From Verrucomicrobiota bacterium (GTDB taxonomy: Bacteria; Verrucomicrobiota; Verrucomicrobiia; Limisphaerales; UBA9464): a stretch of DNA of 40,827 nucleotides. How positions within the stretch are numbered: position 1 is the first letter of the stretch; every line of letters begins with the position of its first letter. Made by a program: the position numbers and the translations under genes. Shown here one piece after another: positions 7,880 through 13,626 of this stretch. The notes beneath the pieces were generated by a model that saw only the letters and a list, made by a program, of their open reading frames with translations, made no database searches and was not told the origin of the DNA. Where the stretch lies: the NCBI GenBank assembly GCA_947471985.1, contig CANIZL010000060.1:1-40827 (forward strand), read 5' to 3'.

Positions 7880-9307
7880 ATGCTGTTCACGACCATACCG
7901 TTTGTTCTCTTTTTCCTCGCGGTATACCCGGTCTACCTTGCGTTTCCCGGACGTCCCTTTCGTCACGCGCTGTTGCTGGTCTCCAGTTCGTTCTTCTACG
8001 CTTGGTGGAATCCCCGTTATCTCGCGTTGATGTGGGGTGTCATCCTGGTCGCGTACGGGGCCGGACTCGCCCTGGAACGTCGCCCCGGTCAGCGCAAGTT
8101 CACCGTGGCGGGGAGCGTGACCCTGCTGCTGAGTCTGATCGCGATCTTCAAGTATGCGGAATTCTTCCGCCACTCGCTCGTTGCGGTCGGCGCCCTTTTC
8201 GGTGGCGAAATCAAACTATCACCGATCCAGATCCTGCTGCCGGTGGGCATCAGCTTCTATGCCTTCCACGGCATCAGCTATGTCGTGGATGTCTACCGCG
8301 GGGTCATTCCGGCCCAACGCAATCCCACCATTGTCGCCCTCTACATTTCGTATTTCCCCCAACTGGTGGCCGGCCCCATTGTGCGTGCCGGCGACTTCAT
8401 TCCGCAGTTGAACAGTGAGATCACTGTCAATGCCGACGACGTCCGCGAGGGATTGCGCAATTTCATCATCGGCATGATCTACAAACTGACGTTTGCGGAT
8501 CAACTGGCCCTGTGGGTGGACCCCGTGCTGTCCAATATCAAGGTCTACGACAACGCCTCGGTGACCGCCGCGGTGCTGGGCTTCTACGGCCAGATCTATT
8601 TTGACTTCGCCGGATATTCGCTAATGGCGATCGGACTGGCCCGGGCCATGGGCTATCGATTTCCGGCTAATTTCGACTATCCCTACCTGGCGACGTCGAT
8701 CACGGATTTCTGGCGCCGCTGGCACATTTCCCTTTCCACTTGGTTGCGCAATTATCTCTATATCCCCCTGGGTGGAAATCGCTGTGCCCGGTGGAAACAA
8801 TACCGCAACTTGATCCTCACCATGCTGCTCGGAGGCTTGTGGCATGGGGCCAGCTGGAATTTTGTCCTCTGGGGCGGATTGCAAGGCGTGGCCCTGGCGG
8901 CGCACCGACTCTTCCGCGGCAAGAATGCCGACACCTCCAATCTTGCTCCAAATTTCTTCACCTCCCTGCCCTCCTGGGTGCTAACCCAGGCATTCGTCGC
9001 CCTGGCTTGGGTCCCCTTCCGCTTGCCGGAATTCCCGGAAACCCTGCAGGTCTACTCGGCCATTGCCCGGCTGCGTGATGACCAGAATCTCAAGCATGCC
9101 GGCATCAGCTACTGGACCCTCTGCCTGCCATTGATCATCGATGGCCTTTTAGGTATCGGTAGGAATCGCCCAGTCTGGAGCCCGTGGCTTCGCCTGCGCA
9201 ACCACCTCCCTTATTTCGTTGAACCGTTTCTTATTGGACTGCTCTTCGCACTCGCGATGACGACCCTCTCCATGAGCGTCAAATCGTTCATTTACTTCCA
9301 ATTCTGA
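7880..9307 (+). CDS. MBOAT-family O-acyltransferase (AlgI/DltB-like)
   Basis: A polytopic inner-membrane protein that moves acyl groups, usually acetyl, across the membrane to an extracytoplasmic partner for polysaccharide O-acylation. It opens with the AlgI-like run LFTTIPFVLFF, has the YFPQLVAGPIVR segment and the WRRWHISLSTW block, and carries the presumed catalytic histidine H322 in LWHGASWNF. About ten hydrophobic segments are visible. Its 475 residues match AlgI-type proteins. The SGNH-like gene upstream is the expected partner. No alginate biosynthesis genes are present here, so another glycan is likely. Confidence 0.93.
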   Translation: MLFTTIPFVLFFLAVYPVYLAFPGRPFRHALLLVSSSFFYAWWNPRYLALMWGVILVAYGAGLALERRPGQRKFTVAGSVTLLLSLIAIFKYAEFFRHSLVAVGALFGGEIKLSPIQILLPVGISFYAFHGISYVVDVYRGVIPAQRNPTIVALYISYFPQLVAGPIVRAGDFIPQLNSEITVNADDVREGLRNFIIGMIYKLTFADQLALWVDPVLSNIKVYDNASVTAAVLGFYGQIYFDFAGYSLMAIGLARAMGYRFPANFDYPYLATSITDFWRRWHISLSTWLRNYLYIPLGGNRCARWKQYRNLILTMLLGGLWHGASWNFVLWGGLQGVALAAHRLFRGKNADTSNLAPNFFTSLPSWVLTQAFVALAWVPFRLPEFPETLQVYSAIARLRDDQNLKHAGISYWTLCLPLIIDGLLGIGRNRPVWSPWLRLRNHLPYFVEPFLIGLLFALAMTTLSMSVKSFIYFQF

Positions 9308-9669
9308 GCACCGGCCGCGGCGTCCCGGCGTCCGTCAGGTCTCCACCCATTCCCGCAAAGATCGGCCCGTTCGGCCGGCTTTCGCGAGGGCGGGCGGGTT
9401 AATATCCGCTCTTTGGAACCGACGCTTCGCTACCCAAAACCTTGGAAAGTCCGCAGGTCATTCCACCTGCGAAGGGCCGGTCCGTACCGCTTTAGTGGGC
9501 GATGTGATTTTTGGATGGTTTGCTTCCCTGATAGCGGCCGCGCCACCCTGGCCCCGGGGAATTCAATATTCCCGCTCTGGCCTGCCGGAACGCCCGGTGC
9601 GTGGGCTTTTCCCACTTGCTGCACAACGCCCGGAATGACTAGCATCCTCGCATCCTTGGAGACGCGCCT
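9308..9669. other. Intergenic region between the acylation pair and the nfeD-flotillin operon
   Basis: No convincing gene in 362 bases. A 7-bp hairpin (CGCAGGT/ACCTGCG, 6-base loop) sits at 9452-9471. There is no T-tract after it, so it is not a clear terminator. The region should hold the promoter for the downstream nfeD-like gene, but no good -35/-10 pair stands out. Confidence 0.6.
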
Positions 9670-10254
9670 ATGGACTTATTCCTGATCTACTTGGTCTGTT
9701 TTGGGACCGGCCTTTGTTTCACCCTCATCAGCGCCTTCACCGCCCATGTTTTTGGGGGACACGAGGCTCACGTGGATCTTGGCCACGCCGATCCCGCCGG
9801 CGCGCACGGTCACGCCGAGGGCGGTTTGGGCACCAGCGACATGCCGGGCTTCGCCGCGCTGAGTCCCACCACCATCGCGGCTTTCATTACCGCGTTCGGC
9901 GGCTTCGGCATGATCTTTGCCAAAATCGAAATTCTGAGTCCCCCGTGGATCAGCCTTTCCCTCGCGACCTTGAGCGGTTTTGTCATCGCCGCAGCGATTC
10001 TGTTTCTTTTCCGGGCGATCTTCCGTCGAACGCAGTGCTCCAGTGAGGGCCGGGTGGCCGCGCTGGTGAACGGGCCGGCGACATTGATCACCCCCATTCC
10101 GGAAAATGGCGTGGGTGAAATCGCCTACGTCCAGGCGGGCACCCGCTATACCGCCCCCGCACGATCGGAAGGCGGGACCGCGATCAGCAATGGTCAGACC
10201 GTCCGGATTTCCCGCATCGTCGGAACCCAATTCTACGTCCGTTCCGTCGATTGA
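9670..10254 (+). CDS. NfeD-like membrane protein (flotillin partner)
   Basis: Small membrane protein with three predicted transmembrane segments (about residues 3-25, 62-85 and 92-116) and a C-terminal OB-fold-like domain (about 120-194, starting SSEGRVAALVNGPA). This matches the NfeD1b/YuaF/YqiJ type encoded next to flotillins. A His/Gly-rich loop (HEAHVDLGHADPAGAHGHAE) lies between the first two helices. It lies 33 bases upstream of the flotillin gene and is almost certainly co-transcribed. In Bacillus, YuaF works with FloT in membrane microdomain organisation; the same role here is inferred. Confidence 0.85.
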   Translation: MDLFLIYLVCFGTGLCFTLISAFTAHVFGGHEAHVDLGHADPAGAHGHAEGGLGTSDMPGFAALSPTTIAAFITAFGGFGMIFAKIEILSPPWISLSLATLSGFVIAAAILFLFRAIFRRTQCSSEGRVAALVNGPATLITPIPENGVGEIAYVQAGTRYTAPARSEGGTAISNGQTVRISRIVGTQFYVRSVD

Positions 10255-10287
10255 TTTTCCGCTGTTAGATTCCTCAACCCAAAAACC

Positions 10288-11817
10288 ATGACTCCTGCAT
10301 TCGTTATTGCCCAGTTTGCACTGCCCCCCGGGTATGGCCTCGCCGCCGTCGCCATCGTCGGCATCCTCATCGTCATCTTCGCCTTCGGGCTCGTCTGGGC
10401 CAGCCGGTACACCAAGGTCGGCCCCAATGAGGTCCTCATCGTTTCCGGCCGGCAGTATCGCCAGGCCGATCCGGACGGCACCGTCCGCAACCGCGGATTT
10501 CGCATCGTCAAAGGCGGTGGCACCTTCGTCTATCCGGTGATCGAAAAGGTCGACATCCTGTCACTGGAACTACTCACCATCGATGTCCAGACGCCCGAGG
10601 TTTACACCAGCAAGGGCGTTCCCGTGAAAGTCGACGGTGTCGCCCAAATCAAGGTGAAGGGTGATGATGTCTCCATCGCCACGGCGGCGGAACAATTCCT
10701 GAGCAAGGACACCGCCGCGATCATGAATATCGCCATGCAAACCATGGAAGGTCATCTGCGGGCGATCCTGGGTACGATGACCGTCGAGGAGATCTATCAG
10801 AACCGGGATGCCTTCGCTCAGAAGGTGCAGGAAGTGGCAGCGGGTGACATGGCCAACATGGGCCTGGGCATCGTCAGCTTCACCATCCGCGACATCCGGG
10901 ACACGCAAGGCTATCTGGACGCCCTCGGCAAACCCCGCATCGCCCAGGTCAAGCGCGACGCGCAGATCGCCCAGGCGGAGGCGGATCGGGATGCGATGAT
11001 CAAATCCTCCCAAGCCACGCAGGCGGGCCAGGAAGCCAAGTTTCTCGCGGATACCAAGATCGCCGAGGCGCAGCGCGACTACCAATCCAACGTCGCGCAA
11101 TACGAGGCGGCCGTGAATCAGAAGAAAGCCGAGGCCGACCTCGCCTATGACCTGCAGAAATTCAAGACCGGCCAGTTGGTCAAAGCTGAGGAAGTGCAGG
11201 TGCAGATCATCGAGAAGCAGAAGCTGATCGAACTGCAGCAGCAGGAAATCCTGCGCAAACAGCGCGAACTCGAGGCGATGGTCCAAAAGCCCGCCGACGC
11301 CGAACGGTACCGAGTTGAGACCTTGTCCAACGCCCGCAAGTTCCAACTGGAAGCGGAGGCATCCGGCGCCGCGGCCGCCACCAAGGCAACCGGCTACGCC
11401 CAGGCGGACGTCAACAAGGCCACCGGCCTCGCGGAAGCCGAGGCGAACAAGGCCAAGGGCCTCGCCCAAGCCGACATCATCGAGGCCCAGGGCCGGGCGA
11501 CTGCCGAGGCCACGCGCCTGAAGGCCGAGGCCTTCCAGCAATACAACGAGGCCGCCGTCATCGAACTGCTGGTCAAAGTGCTGCCCGAAATCGCCGGTCG
11601 GATCAGCGAGCCCCTGGCCAAGATGGACAAGATGGTGATCATCAACTCCGGCAATGGACCCGGTGGTGGGGCCAGCAAGTTGACCGGCGACGTCGCCCAG
11701 ATCATGGCCCAACTACCGCCCATCCTGGAGAGCCTGACGGGCGTGAAATTCGAAAAACTCCTCCAACAGATTCCCGCCTTGAAGCAAGCGATGTCGAAGG
11801 AGGAGCCCTCTGCGTAA
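10288..11817 (+). CDS. floT: Flotillin-family SPFH protein
   Basis: A membrane-scaffold protein of flotillin-type microdomains. It has one N-terminal membrane segment (about residues 12-37), an SPFH/PHB domain (about 40-200, with VGPNEVLIVSG and the repeated VDGVAQIKVKGDD region), then a long Ala/Glu/Lys/Gln-rich coiled coil (about 220-430) with the EAEA-type repeats typical of flotillins, and a hydrophobic-rich C-terminus. The length of 509 fits FloT/YqiK proteins. It follows the nfeD-like gene, and its stop codon overlaps the start of the next gene by 8 bases. Confidence 0.95.
   Translation: MTPAFVIAQFALPPGYGLAAVAIVGILIVIFAFGLVWASRYTKVGPNEVLIVSGRQYRQADPDGTVRNRGFRIVKGGGTFVYPVIEKVDILSLELLTIDVQTPEVYTSKGVPVKVDGVAQIKVKGDDVSIATAAEQFLSKDTAAIMNIAMQTMEGHLRAILGTMTVEEIYQNRDAFAQKVQEVAAGDMANMGLGIVSFTIRDIRDTQGYLDALGKPRIAQVKRDAQIAQAEADRDAMIKSSQATQAGQEAKFLADTKIAEAQRDYQSNVAQYEAAVNQKKAEADLAYDLQKFKTGQLVKAEEVQVQIIEKQKLIELQQQEILRKQRELEAMVQKPADAERYRVETLSNARKFQLEAEASGAAAATKATGYAQADVNKATGLAEAEANKAKGLAQADIIEAQGRATAEATRLKAEAFQQYNEAAVIELLVKVLPEIAGRISEPLAKMDKMVIINSGNGPGGGASKLTGDVAQIMAQLPPILESLTGVKFEKLLQQIPALKQAMSKEEPSA
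11797..11803 (+). promoter_or_regulatory. Strong Shine-Dalgarno sequence for the CTG-started gene
   Basis: AAGGAGG lies inside the 3' end of the flotillin gene, six bases before the CTG at 11810. Most starts in this window lack a recognisable Shine-Dalgarno sequence, so this one is notable and fixes the unusual start. Confidence 0.7.
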
Positions 11818-12415
11818 GGCCCAGGGCGACCCGGCTGGATCGGCGTCGCCACCCCCCCGCCGGACCCGCGCCCTGCCGCGGGTCCGGTTTCTGCTGCTCC
11901 CCCTTCTGGGGCTGGTTCTGGTCGCCGGCCTGGCGGGTCTGGACCGGTGCCGGGTTCAGCCCACGGCCCTCATTTTCAGCGGGTTTACCAACTCGCCCGC
12001 CGTCCTGGATCGTTTTGTCACCCTCCCGAGCAACACGCGGGTTGCCGTTTTTTGCCTGACCAATCCAGGCCCCGGACGCGTGCTCGTGCGGGGCGACGTG
12101 ATCCGCGAGACCAAAACCAATCGCGCAGCCGAGTTTCAATCCACCGTTGCCCACGACTATACGTCGGGAAACTGGTTGAATTCGGGCGGCTCGGATTGGA
12201 TCCTTTTCCCGGAGCCAGCCGGGGCCTCCGAGTGGCGATTAACTGTTCCCCTCACCCGGCCCGCGCCCGACTGGCTGCGGCGCCAGCAATCGCTTCTCAA
12301 CTCACTCGGCGTGTGGCGCTACATCCGCAACTGGCAGGAACCCCGCGTCAGCAGCGAGATCCTTGCGACCGCCCGAACCAACTTACCGGCCAACGCCCCC
12401 CGTCGCTCCCGGTAG
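11810..12415 (+). CDS. Uncharacterised membrane-anchored protein with CTG start, third gene of flotillin operon
   Basis: 201 residues, function not recognised. The frame is open from just after a TGA at 11780-11782. Between there and 12080 it contains no ATG, GTG or TTG, yet that stretch encodes a clear membrane anchor, so the CTG at 11810, six bases after AAGGAGG, is the best start. The GTG at 12080 would cut off the anchor. The protein has a basic, Pro-rich cytoplasmic head (1-26), one transmembrane helix (about 27-44), and an extracytoplasmic part with the pattern FSGFTNSPAVLDRF...FCLTNPGPGRVLV, suggesting a small beta-sandwich of the kind seen in many verrucomicrobial proteins of unknown function. 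It overlaps the flotillin stop by 8 bases, implying coupled translation. Confidence 0.7.
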   Translation: MRKAQGDPAGSASPPPRRTRALPRVRFLLLPLLGLVLVAGLAGLDRCRVQPTALIFSGFTNSPAVLDRFVTLPSNTRVAVFCLTNPGPGRVLVRGDVIRETKTNRAAEFQSTVAHDYTSGNWLNSGGSDWILFPEPAGASEWRLTVPLTRPAPDWLRRQQSLLNSLGVWRYIRNWQEPRVSSEILATARTNLPANAPRRSR

Positions 12416-12507
12416 TCCCGCGGCCCGCAATCCGCGACCGACATTCACCCATCACGACGTTGTCACTCGCCGGTTTTCCCCGAAGGTGGCGTCACACCGT
12501 CGACTGC

Positions 12508-13626
12508 ATGTACTTCCGCCTTATTGCTCTGCTCCTCATGCTGGGGATCGGTATCGCCCGCCAAGGCGTCCGGGCCGAACCCATTCCCGGCCTCTCCACA
12601 GTGTTCATCATCGTCATGGAAAACCATGATTGGAGTACCATCAAAGGCAGCGCCTTCTGTCCCTACATCAACAACACGCTTCTGCCGCAGGCCGCCTACG
12701 CCAACGCTTACTACAATCCCGCCGGCATCCACCCCAGCGAGCCCAATTATCTCTGGCTCGTCGGCGGCACCAATTTCGGCGTCAAGGATGACAAGCTTCC
12801 CTCGATCAATACCCAGCGCACCACCAATCACCTCGCCTGGCTCCTGGATCGTGCCGGCGTCCCGTGGAAGGCGTACGTCGAAGACATCACCGGACGGAAC
12901 ATTCCGCTTACCAACAATGGTCCGTACGTGGCCCGACACGTGCCGTTCCTGTTCTTTGAAAACATCAACACCAACCTGACCTACGTCACCAACCACATCC
13001 GGCCGTACGGCGAATTGGCGCGCGATTTGACCTCCAACACGGTCCCCAACTTCTGCTTCATCACGCCGAATCTCACGAACGACATGCACAACACCACCGC
13101 GGGCAGTCCCAGCTCGCGGCTGCAGGGCGACAATTGGTTGGCCAAGGAAATCCCGCTGATCCTCAAATCGGCCGCCTATCAGCGCGGCGGACTCGTCATT
13201 ATTACCTGGGACGAAGGTGCCGGTTCTTCGAGTGATGGTCCCATCGGCCTGATCCTGTTGTCGCCCCGCGTCCGAAGTGCCGGCTTTAACAGCTCTGTCC
13301 CCTATGACCACAGCGACACCTTGCGCACGCTGCAGGATATTCTGGGTGTACGCCCTTATCTCGGAGCGGCCGCCAACGCCACCGGCCTGGGAGAGTTCTT
13401 CAAATTCCTTCGCGTCGAAGCCGCTGGAGTGGATGAAGCGGGTCGCCATTTTACCCTGCGCGACGCGGTGGCGGGCCGCACGTATCGATTGGAATTCAGC
13501 CTTGATGCCCGGCCCAGCTCCTGGACCGGGGTGACGGAACAGATTGCCACCGCAGCAACCTTGGAATTCGTGGATTCCAGCCCGGAGAGTTCGCACCAGT
13601 TCTTCCGTGTCCGGGAGCTGCCCTGA
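12508..13626 (+). CDS. Secreted phosphoesterase-family protein (acid phosphatase / phospholipase C-like)
   Basis: An extracytoplasmic hydrolase of the PF04185 phosphoesterase family, which cleaves phosphomonoesters or phospholipids. A signal peptide (about 1-23, ending VRAEP) precedes the metal-site motif E38-N39-H40-D41 (VMENHDW); later family blocks include PNYLWLVGG, CFITPNLTNDMHN, ITWDEG and DHSDTLRTL. The last 75 or so residues form a separate beta-rich tail (FFKFLRVEAAG...SHQFFRVRELP), a type common at the ends of secreted verrucomicrobial proteins. The same frame is open back to 11947, but that part overlaps the preceding gene; the ATG at 12508 begins the signal peptide. Confidence 0.88.
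   Translation: MYFRLIALLLMLGIGIARQGVRAEPIPGLSTVFIIVMENHDWSTIKGSAFCPYINNTLLPQAAYANAYYNPAGIHPSEPNYLWLVGGTNFGVKDDKLPSINTQRTTNHLAWLLDRAGVPWKAYVEDITGRNIPLTNNGPYVARHVPFLFFENINTNLTYVTNHIRPYGELARDLTSNTVPNFCFITPNLTNDMHNTTAGSPSSRLQGDNWLAKEIPLILKSAAYQRGGLVIITWDEGAGSSSDGPIGLILLSPRVRSAGFNSSVPYDHSDTLRTLQDILGVRPYLGAAANATGLGEFFKFLRVEAAGVDEAGRHFTLRDAVAGRTYRLEFSLDARPSSWTGVTEQIATAATLEFVDSSPESSHQFFRVRELP

Follow-up and report, generated by a model that had tools for sequence, protein, structure and literature searches.

An undescribed family of membrane-anchored proteins and its divergent member without a canonical start codon behind an NfeD–flotillin operon

The window, a whole contig of 40,827 nucleotides, belongs to a draft genome of 6.38 Mb in 180 contigs that is probably metagenomic. 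Its forward strand carries a gene for an NfeD-like protein, a flotillin gene and, directly downstream, an open reading frame for a small membrane protein (Table 1). A gene of the phosphoesterase family (PF04185, E 2.1e-22; 12508–13626, same strand) follows after a gap of 92 nt. The frame of the membrane protein is free of stops from 11783 to 12412 and is shut upstream by TGA at 11780–11782. As the initial annotation had stated, it offers no ATG, GTG or TTG before 12080, and the part ahead of that position encodes a membrane anchor. Translation from GTG 12080 was rejected, because it would remove the anchor together with the first part of the domain behind it. Gene finders restricted to ATG, GTG and TTG would consequently truncate the protein, as had been proposed, since no canonical start can yield the anchor. 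With a codon model derived from 192 long ORFs, the coding score was +25.4 for 11810–12412 and at most +6.1 for the other five frames, and the coding signal of the frame runs through the anchor.

Table 1. Features of the NfeD–flotillin locus and of the membrane-protein reading frame (positions in the window)
Feature	Position	Strand	Evidence or remark
NfeD-like protein gene	9670..10254	+	Pfam NfeD PF01957, E 0.0052, 17.4 bits (cut-off 29.1)
Flotillin gene (Band_7 + Flot)	10288..11817	+	PF01145, 3.1e-32; PF15975, 8e-9; NCBIfam FloT, 520 bits (cut-off 700)
AAGGAGG, Shine-Dalgarno-like, within flotillin K-E-E codons	11797..11803	+	sequence; before 1/1105 predicted starts
Candidate start CTG no. 1 (initial annotation)	11810..11812	+	6-nt spacer from AAGGAGG; anchor 27 codons on
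Perfect 11-bp GC hairpin, 6-nt loop CCCTGC, then TTTCTGCT	11860..11887	+	-26.3 kcal/mol
Candidate start CTG no. 2, in hairpin loop	11873..11875	+	6 codons ahead of anchor
N-terminal membrane anchor, LLLPLLGLVLVAGLAGL	11888..11941	+	mean hydropathy 2.55; comparable segment in 50/50 family ORFs
Beta-rich family domain (GFTN ... AVFCLTN ... SEWR)	11954..12412	+	profiles without the window protein: E 7.3e-7, 8.8e-16
GTG, earliest canonical in-frame start	12080..12082	+	sequence; use would cost the anchor and the start of the domain
Stop codon TAG of membrane-protein ORF	12413..12415	+	sequence

Relatives of this protein were reached by an indirect route. Direct ORF searches returned only the ORF itself from its own genome (E up to 1) and no relative from 58 related genomes (E up to 0.001). 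Motif scans of 440,827 bases of its own genome likewise found the window ORF alone, and none of the 172 pattern matches in genome contigs or the 24 in viral contigs was a relative of it. The domain alone gave weak matches at E up to 10 in 35 of the 58 genomes; 15 regions from this list were read and set aside as chance. A search of 320 genomes of the order produced 16 weak matches besides the ORF itself, and among six loci inspected one (L185) proved to be a true relative: a protein of 204 aa (E 0.0066) that carries an anchor, shares the motifs and has ATG starts available. Searching with L185 gave 14 matches, of which ten loci were read, and seven sequences including L185 were combined into a profile (A2). 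This profile matched the window ORF at E 7.3e-7; its sequences had been reached via the window protein, so that the chain is not independent, yet none of the letters of that protein are in the profile. At E up to 0.001 the same window-free profile hit 37 of the 320 genomes, and a larger profile of 48 sequences, again without the window protein, found the window ORF among 9001 sequences at E 8.8e-16.

The family set assembled in this way comprises 50 distinct ORFs (E up to 0.018), all of them with a hydrophobic segment, which bears out the assignment of the anchor to the protein. In the scans whose scores were reported, the family proteins stayed below the cut-off of every Pfam and NCBIfam model; the NCBIfam scans covered the window ORF and six relatives. 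Judged from its sequence, the window ORF is a real, divergent member of a family that lacks a Pfam or NCBIfam model: profiles that leave it out match it, and its anchor stands directly ahead of the domain. It shares with the other members the N-terminal anchor, GF/YTN near the first strand, A-x-F-x-x-T/S-N, a P followed by W-R, and the layout of a single small protein. It differs from them in its position behind flotillin, in its low identity (14–26% to the other 47 aligned members) and in its start: at or before the anchor an ATG is present in 47 of the 50 ORFs and GTG or TTG in two, and the window ORF alone has none of these codons, a difference that bears on its expression and not on its homology. 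With this set an undescribed protein family gains a profile, and a blind spot of gene finders, a gene without ATG, GTG or TTG, becomes recognisable through family homology.

The family appears to be spread through the order, apparently Limisphaerales. Among 387 genomes drawn from the phylum, with at most nine candidates scored per genome and the share of the order in the draw not stated, matches occurred in one other genome, as three weak matches within a single ORF of 2709 aa, and because this draw was nearly empty the family seems to be restricted to the order. The source genome itself holds five members. Three of them were new in a search with a profile that included the window protein and the member on contig C115, these two query rows being the remaining members of the five; a window-free profile found the same two. 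The four members other than the window ORF have an ATG ahead of the anchor. Neighbouring pairs of family members at four loci (L203 in genome G159, L208 in G108, L227 and L237) suggest local duplication, the second member at L237 being weak (E 0.018).

The domain behind the anchor probably has an Ig-like beta fold and lies outside the membrane, both the fold and the side of the membrane being predictions. One of 48 members (L235) matches the NEW3 family (NPCBM_assoc, PF10633) at 4e-5 with 24.1 bits, just below the cut-off of 24.4, and one of 48 matches Ig_mannosidase at 0.0017; the window protein itself matches none of these models. Seven weak PDB matches (E 0.03–2.2, best 0.033) give at most a hint of the fold, and some of the domains matched are ones that we take to be beta-sandwiches. 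A single-sequence structure model of the window protein reached pLDDT 40 and was unusable.

The initial annotation had also regarded the membrane protein as a third partner of the NfeD–flotillin pair and had proposed checking whether its homologues always follow flotillin. The partnership is not supported by the comparison of loci, and the suggestion is corrected here. Of the 74 loci with enough upstream sequence, 73 have an NfeD relative at most 600 nt ahead of flotillin. A family member was found at none of the best 80 of the 158 flotillin loci recovered, 77 of these 80 having at least 900 nt of downstream sequence (best E 0.44 with the protein and 0.086 with the profile), and the 11 loci read around family members have varying neighbours. 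The membrane gene thus seems to owe its place behind the NfeD–flotillin operon to local history and to be no regular component of it: it lies directly downstream on the same strand, with an overlap of 8 nt if CTG 11810 is used, but with a probable terminator in between. In five of the related loci (L004, L005, L013, L014 and L015) the neighbourhood downstream of flotillin is more recurrent than in the window; a small protein with F-W-x-W-M-L-V-D follows flotillin in four of the five (by reading), and a protein taken for carbonic anhydrase, also by reading, is found downstream in four of the five.

The putative terminator is a perfect GC hairpin that starts 42 nt past the flotillin stop, between CTG 11810 and the anchor (z -4.64; none of 200 shuffles as good). 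Hairpins of this kind cluster behind stop codons in the source genome: a count over 1.60 Mb gave 38 perfect hairpins (stem at least 11 bp, loop 3–8 nt), 30 of them within 100 nt after a stop codon, and 31 are intergenic though 87% of the bases are coding. The hairpin of the window is among the seven inside predicted coding sequence, because the membrane ORF counts as coding. Given this clustering of GC hairpins after stops, the structure at 11860–11887, which is of the same kind, is most likely a terminator, probably an intrinsic one that ends the flotillin operon. The stem is followed by a short T tract, the tail TTTCTGCT failing the rule of at least five T in eight bases, and a terminator scan of 9300–12700 listed eight other sites (3.0 expected) and not this one. 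Many of the GC hairpins after stops in this genome have a short T tract and perhaps represent a kind of terminator overlooked by strict T-run rules. In related flotillin loci a hairpin of at least 8 bp within 120 nt after the stop was rare (2/80, vs 1/80 coding controls), so that the hairpin of the window is local. Measured by the distance to the anchor, it covers the usual start position of the family.

Whether the genome makes use of Shine-Dalgarno (SD) sites bears on the choice of start. In 1.60 Mb of the source genome an SD four-mer precedes 90 of 1105 predicted starts and AAGGAGG precedes one, which upholds the earlier remark that such sites are rare here; AAGGAGG followed by CTG after 4–9 nt was counted 16 times over the two strands, where CTG triplets number 54,985. 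At 158 unambiguous ATG starts SD four-mers are not enriched (13, vs 13–19 in control windows), but the strong motifs are slightly so, with GGAGG or AGGAG at 9 starts vs 2–3 in the controls and AAGGAG or AGGAGG at 3 vs 0. The anti-SD ACCTCCTT of the 16S tail is intact in all eight full-length 16S genes of relatives; the 16S gene of the source genome itself was not found in its assembly. The AAGGAGG at the end of the flotillin gene is therefore unusual in its genome and could well function as an SD site.

Our preferred explanation, held tentatively and with somewhat less than even confidence, is that the ORF is a real, divergent family gene translated from a near-cognate CTG, at 11873 or at 11810, the start proposed in the initial annotation being included. 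Its product would be a small protein with one N-terminal anchor and, outside the membrane, one domain that is probably of the Ig-like beta kind, and as the assembly holds no canonical start, it would, if made, begin at one of these two codons. With the start region lying under the probable terminator, little expression is to be expected, and it would depend on read-through or a local promoter. The codon itself points the same way: CUG accounts for 0.024% of the initiation codons of bacteria, and a CUG start gives 0.86% of the protein output of AUG (PMC11497404), and with initiation at CUG so rare and weak, any expression of the membrane protein should be low.

Between the two codons we rate CTG 11873 slightly ahead, as it fits the start position of the family better. 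In 48 of the 49 family members measured the closest ATG lies 0–16 codons ahead of the anchor; the ATG of the relatives thus falls near the equivalent of 11873, judged by the distance to the anchor, as these regions are not alignable codon by codon. CTG 11873 is followed by a short basic n-region and has C at -1, as do 65% of the 158 unambiguous ATG starts. Over 11810–11872, the stretch of 21 codons that separates the two CTGs, the mean coding score is -0.01; a score that low is found in 11% of the 158 true first-21-codon stretches and one that high in 10% of 67 open upstream stretches, so that with such similar tails the score does not decide between the starts. The direct sequence searches found no close homologue in which the conservation of either CTG could be followed.

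A possible but more doubtful explanation is that the ORF is a 5'-truncated remnant, which lost its start on being joined to the flotillin terminator and whose open frame is not translated, or hardly so. The window ORF is the sole one of the 50 without a canonical start, a terminator-like hairpin stands where the relatives have their ATG (by distance to the anchor), and CTG would be a very weak replacement by the figures taken from PMC11497404. A scan of 9300–12700 for one promoter type, with 0.6 sites expected by chance, found no promoter-like site. Against decay, the frame holds no stop or frameshift and retains its coding score and the family motifs. Family genes elsewhere also score low (13–18 for proteins of 130–166 aa at five loci, compared with 26.6 for the window ORF), so that a low score is no sign of decay.

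The more specific model of the initial annotation, in which initiation at CTG 11810 is coupled to translation of flotillin, is weakened, and we consider it unlikely as one part of that reading. The sequence confirms that AAGGAGG lies 6 nt ahead of this CTG within the flotillin gene. The site is rare and at the usual spacing, is fully complementary to the CCTCCTT of the 16S tails in 8/8 relatives, and belongs to the strong motifs that are enriched at unambiguous starts. A start here would overlap flotillin (TAA 11815–11817) by 8 nt, and CTG-CGT-AAG resembles the M-K/R-K/R of the family, which has K/R at position 2 in 33/49 and at position 3 in 24/49. RNA folding around CTG 11810 alone is ordinary (z 0.70). 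Several observations stand against it, however. The lack of enrichment of SD four-mers before starts makes the case for this codon weaker. At 27 codons to the anchor the N-terminus would be longer than that of 48 of 49 relatives, the coding signal in 11810–11872 is ambiguous, and the probable terminator stands between this start and the anchor. AAGGAGG also occurs in the flotillin tails of 2/80 relatives (L119 and L143), where K-E-E or K-E-D codons account for it and the membrane gene was not found.

That a wrong base in the draft assembly accounts for the missing start seems to us quite improbable, though less so than the switch considered below. A single substitution would be enough, and the start region is GC-rich, forms a hairpin and lies beside a run of seven C. 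A single indel in this run would be of no help, as the other two frames have no ATG, GTG or TTG from their last stop to the run. Errors might also give the rate at which such genes were met in the genome. A coding signal ahead of the first canonical start flagged 11 of 1148 predicted genes; by eye, most of these were antisense, truncated or provided with a plausible ATG, and two were convincing, the window ORF and an MBOAT gene. Very improbable, finally, is a switch in which ribosomes restarting at CUG 11810 with its strong SD site cross the hairpin and block the terminator, so that transcription extends into the membrane gene; if true, antitermination would here depend on translation and be set by a near-cognate start, in a genome otherwise little reliant on SD sites that holds at least one further near-cognate start candidate, the ATA of the MBOAT gene.

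If translated from a CTG, as we prefer, the ORF would offer a clear case in nature for testing initiation at CTG. Near-cognate starts in bacteria include the AUU of the infC type. The window ORF resembles genes with such starts (CUG, or AUU as in infC) in having no ATG, GTG or TTG before its conserved N-terminal part; it differs in having two candidate CTGs and in that its start is a prediction from the sequence. Together with the MBOAT gene (PF03062, 1.3e-23; C1:40080-41600, minus strand; L080, L322) it raises the question of whether near-cognate starts are commoner in Verrucomicrobiota poor in Shine-Dalgarno sites. The MBOAT gene has ATA at a conserved first codon, which in the 24 alignable loci among 29 of its relatives is ATG in 19, GTG in three and another codon in two, one of these with an ATG one codon later. 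The 18 nt preceding this ATA contain no Shine-Dalgarno-like site.
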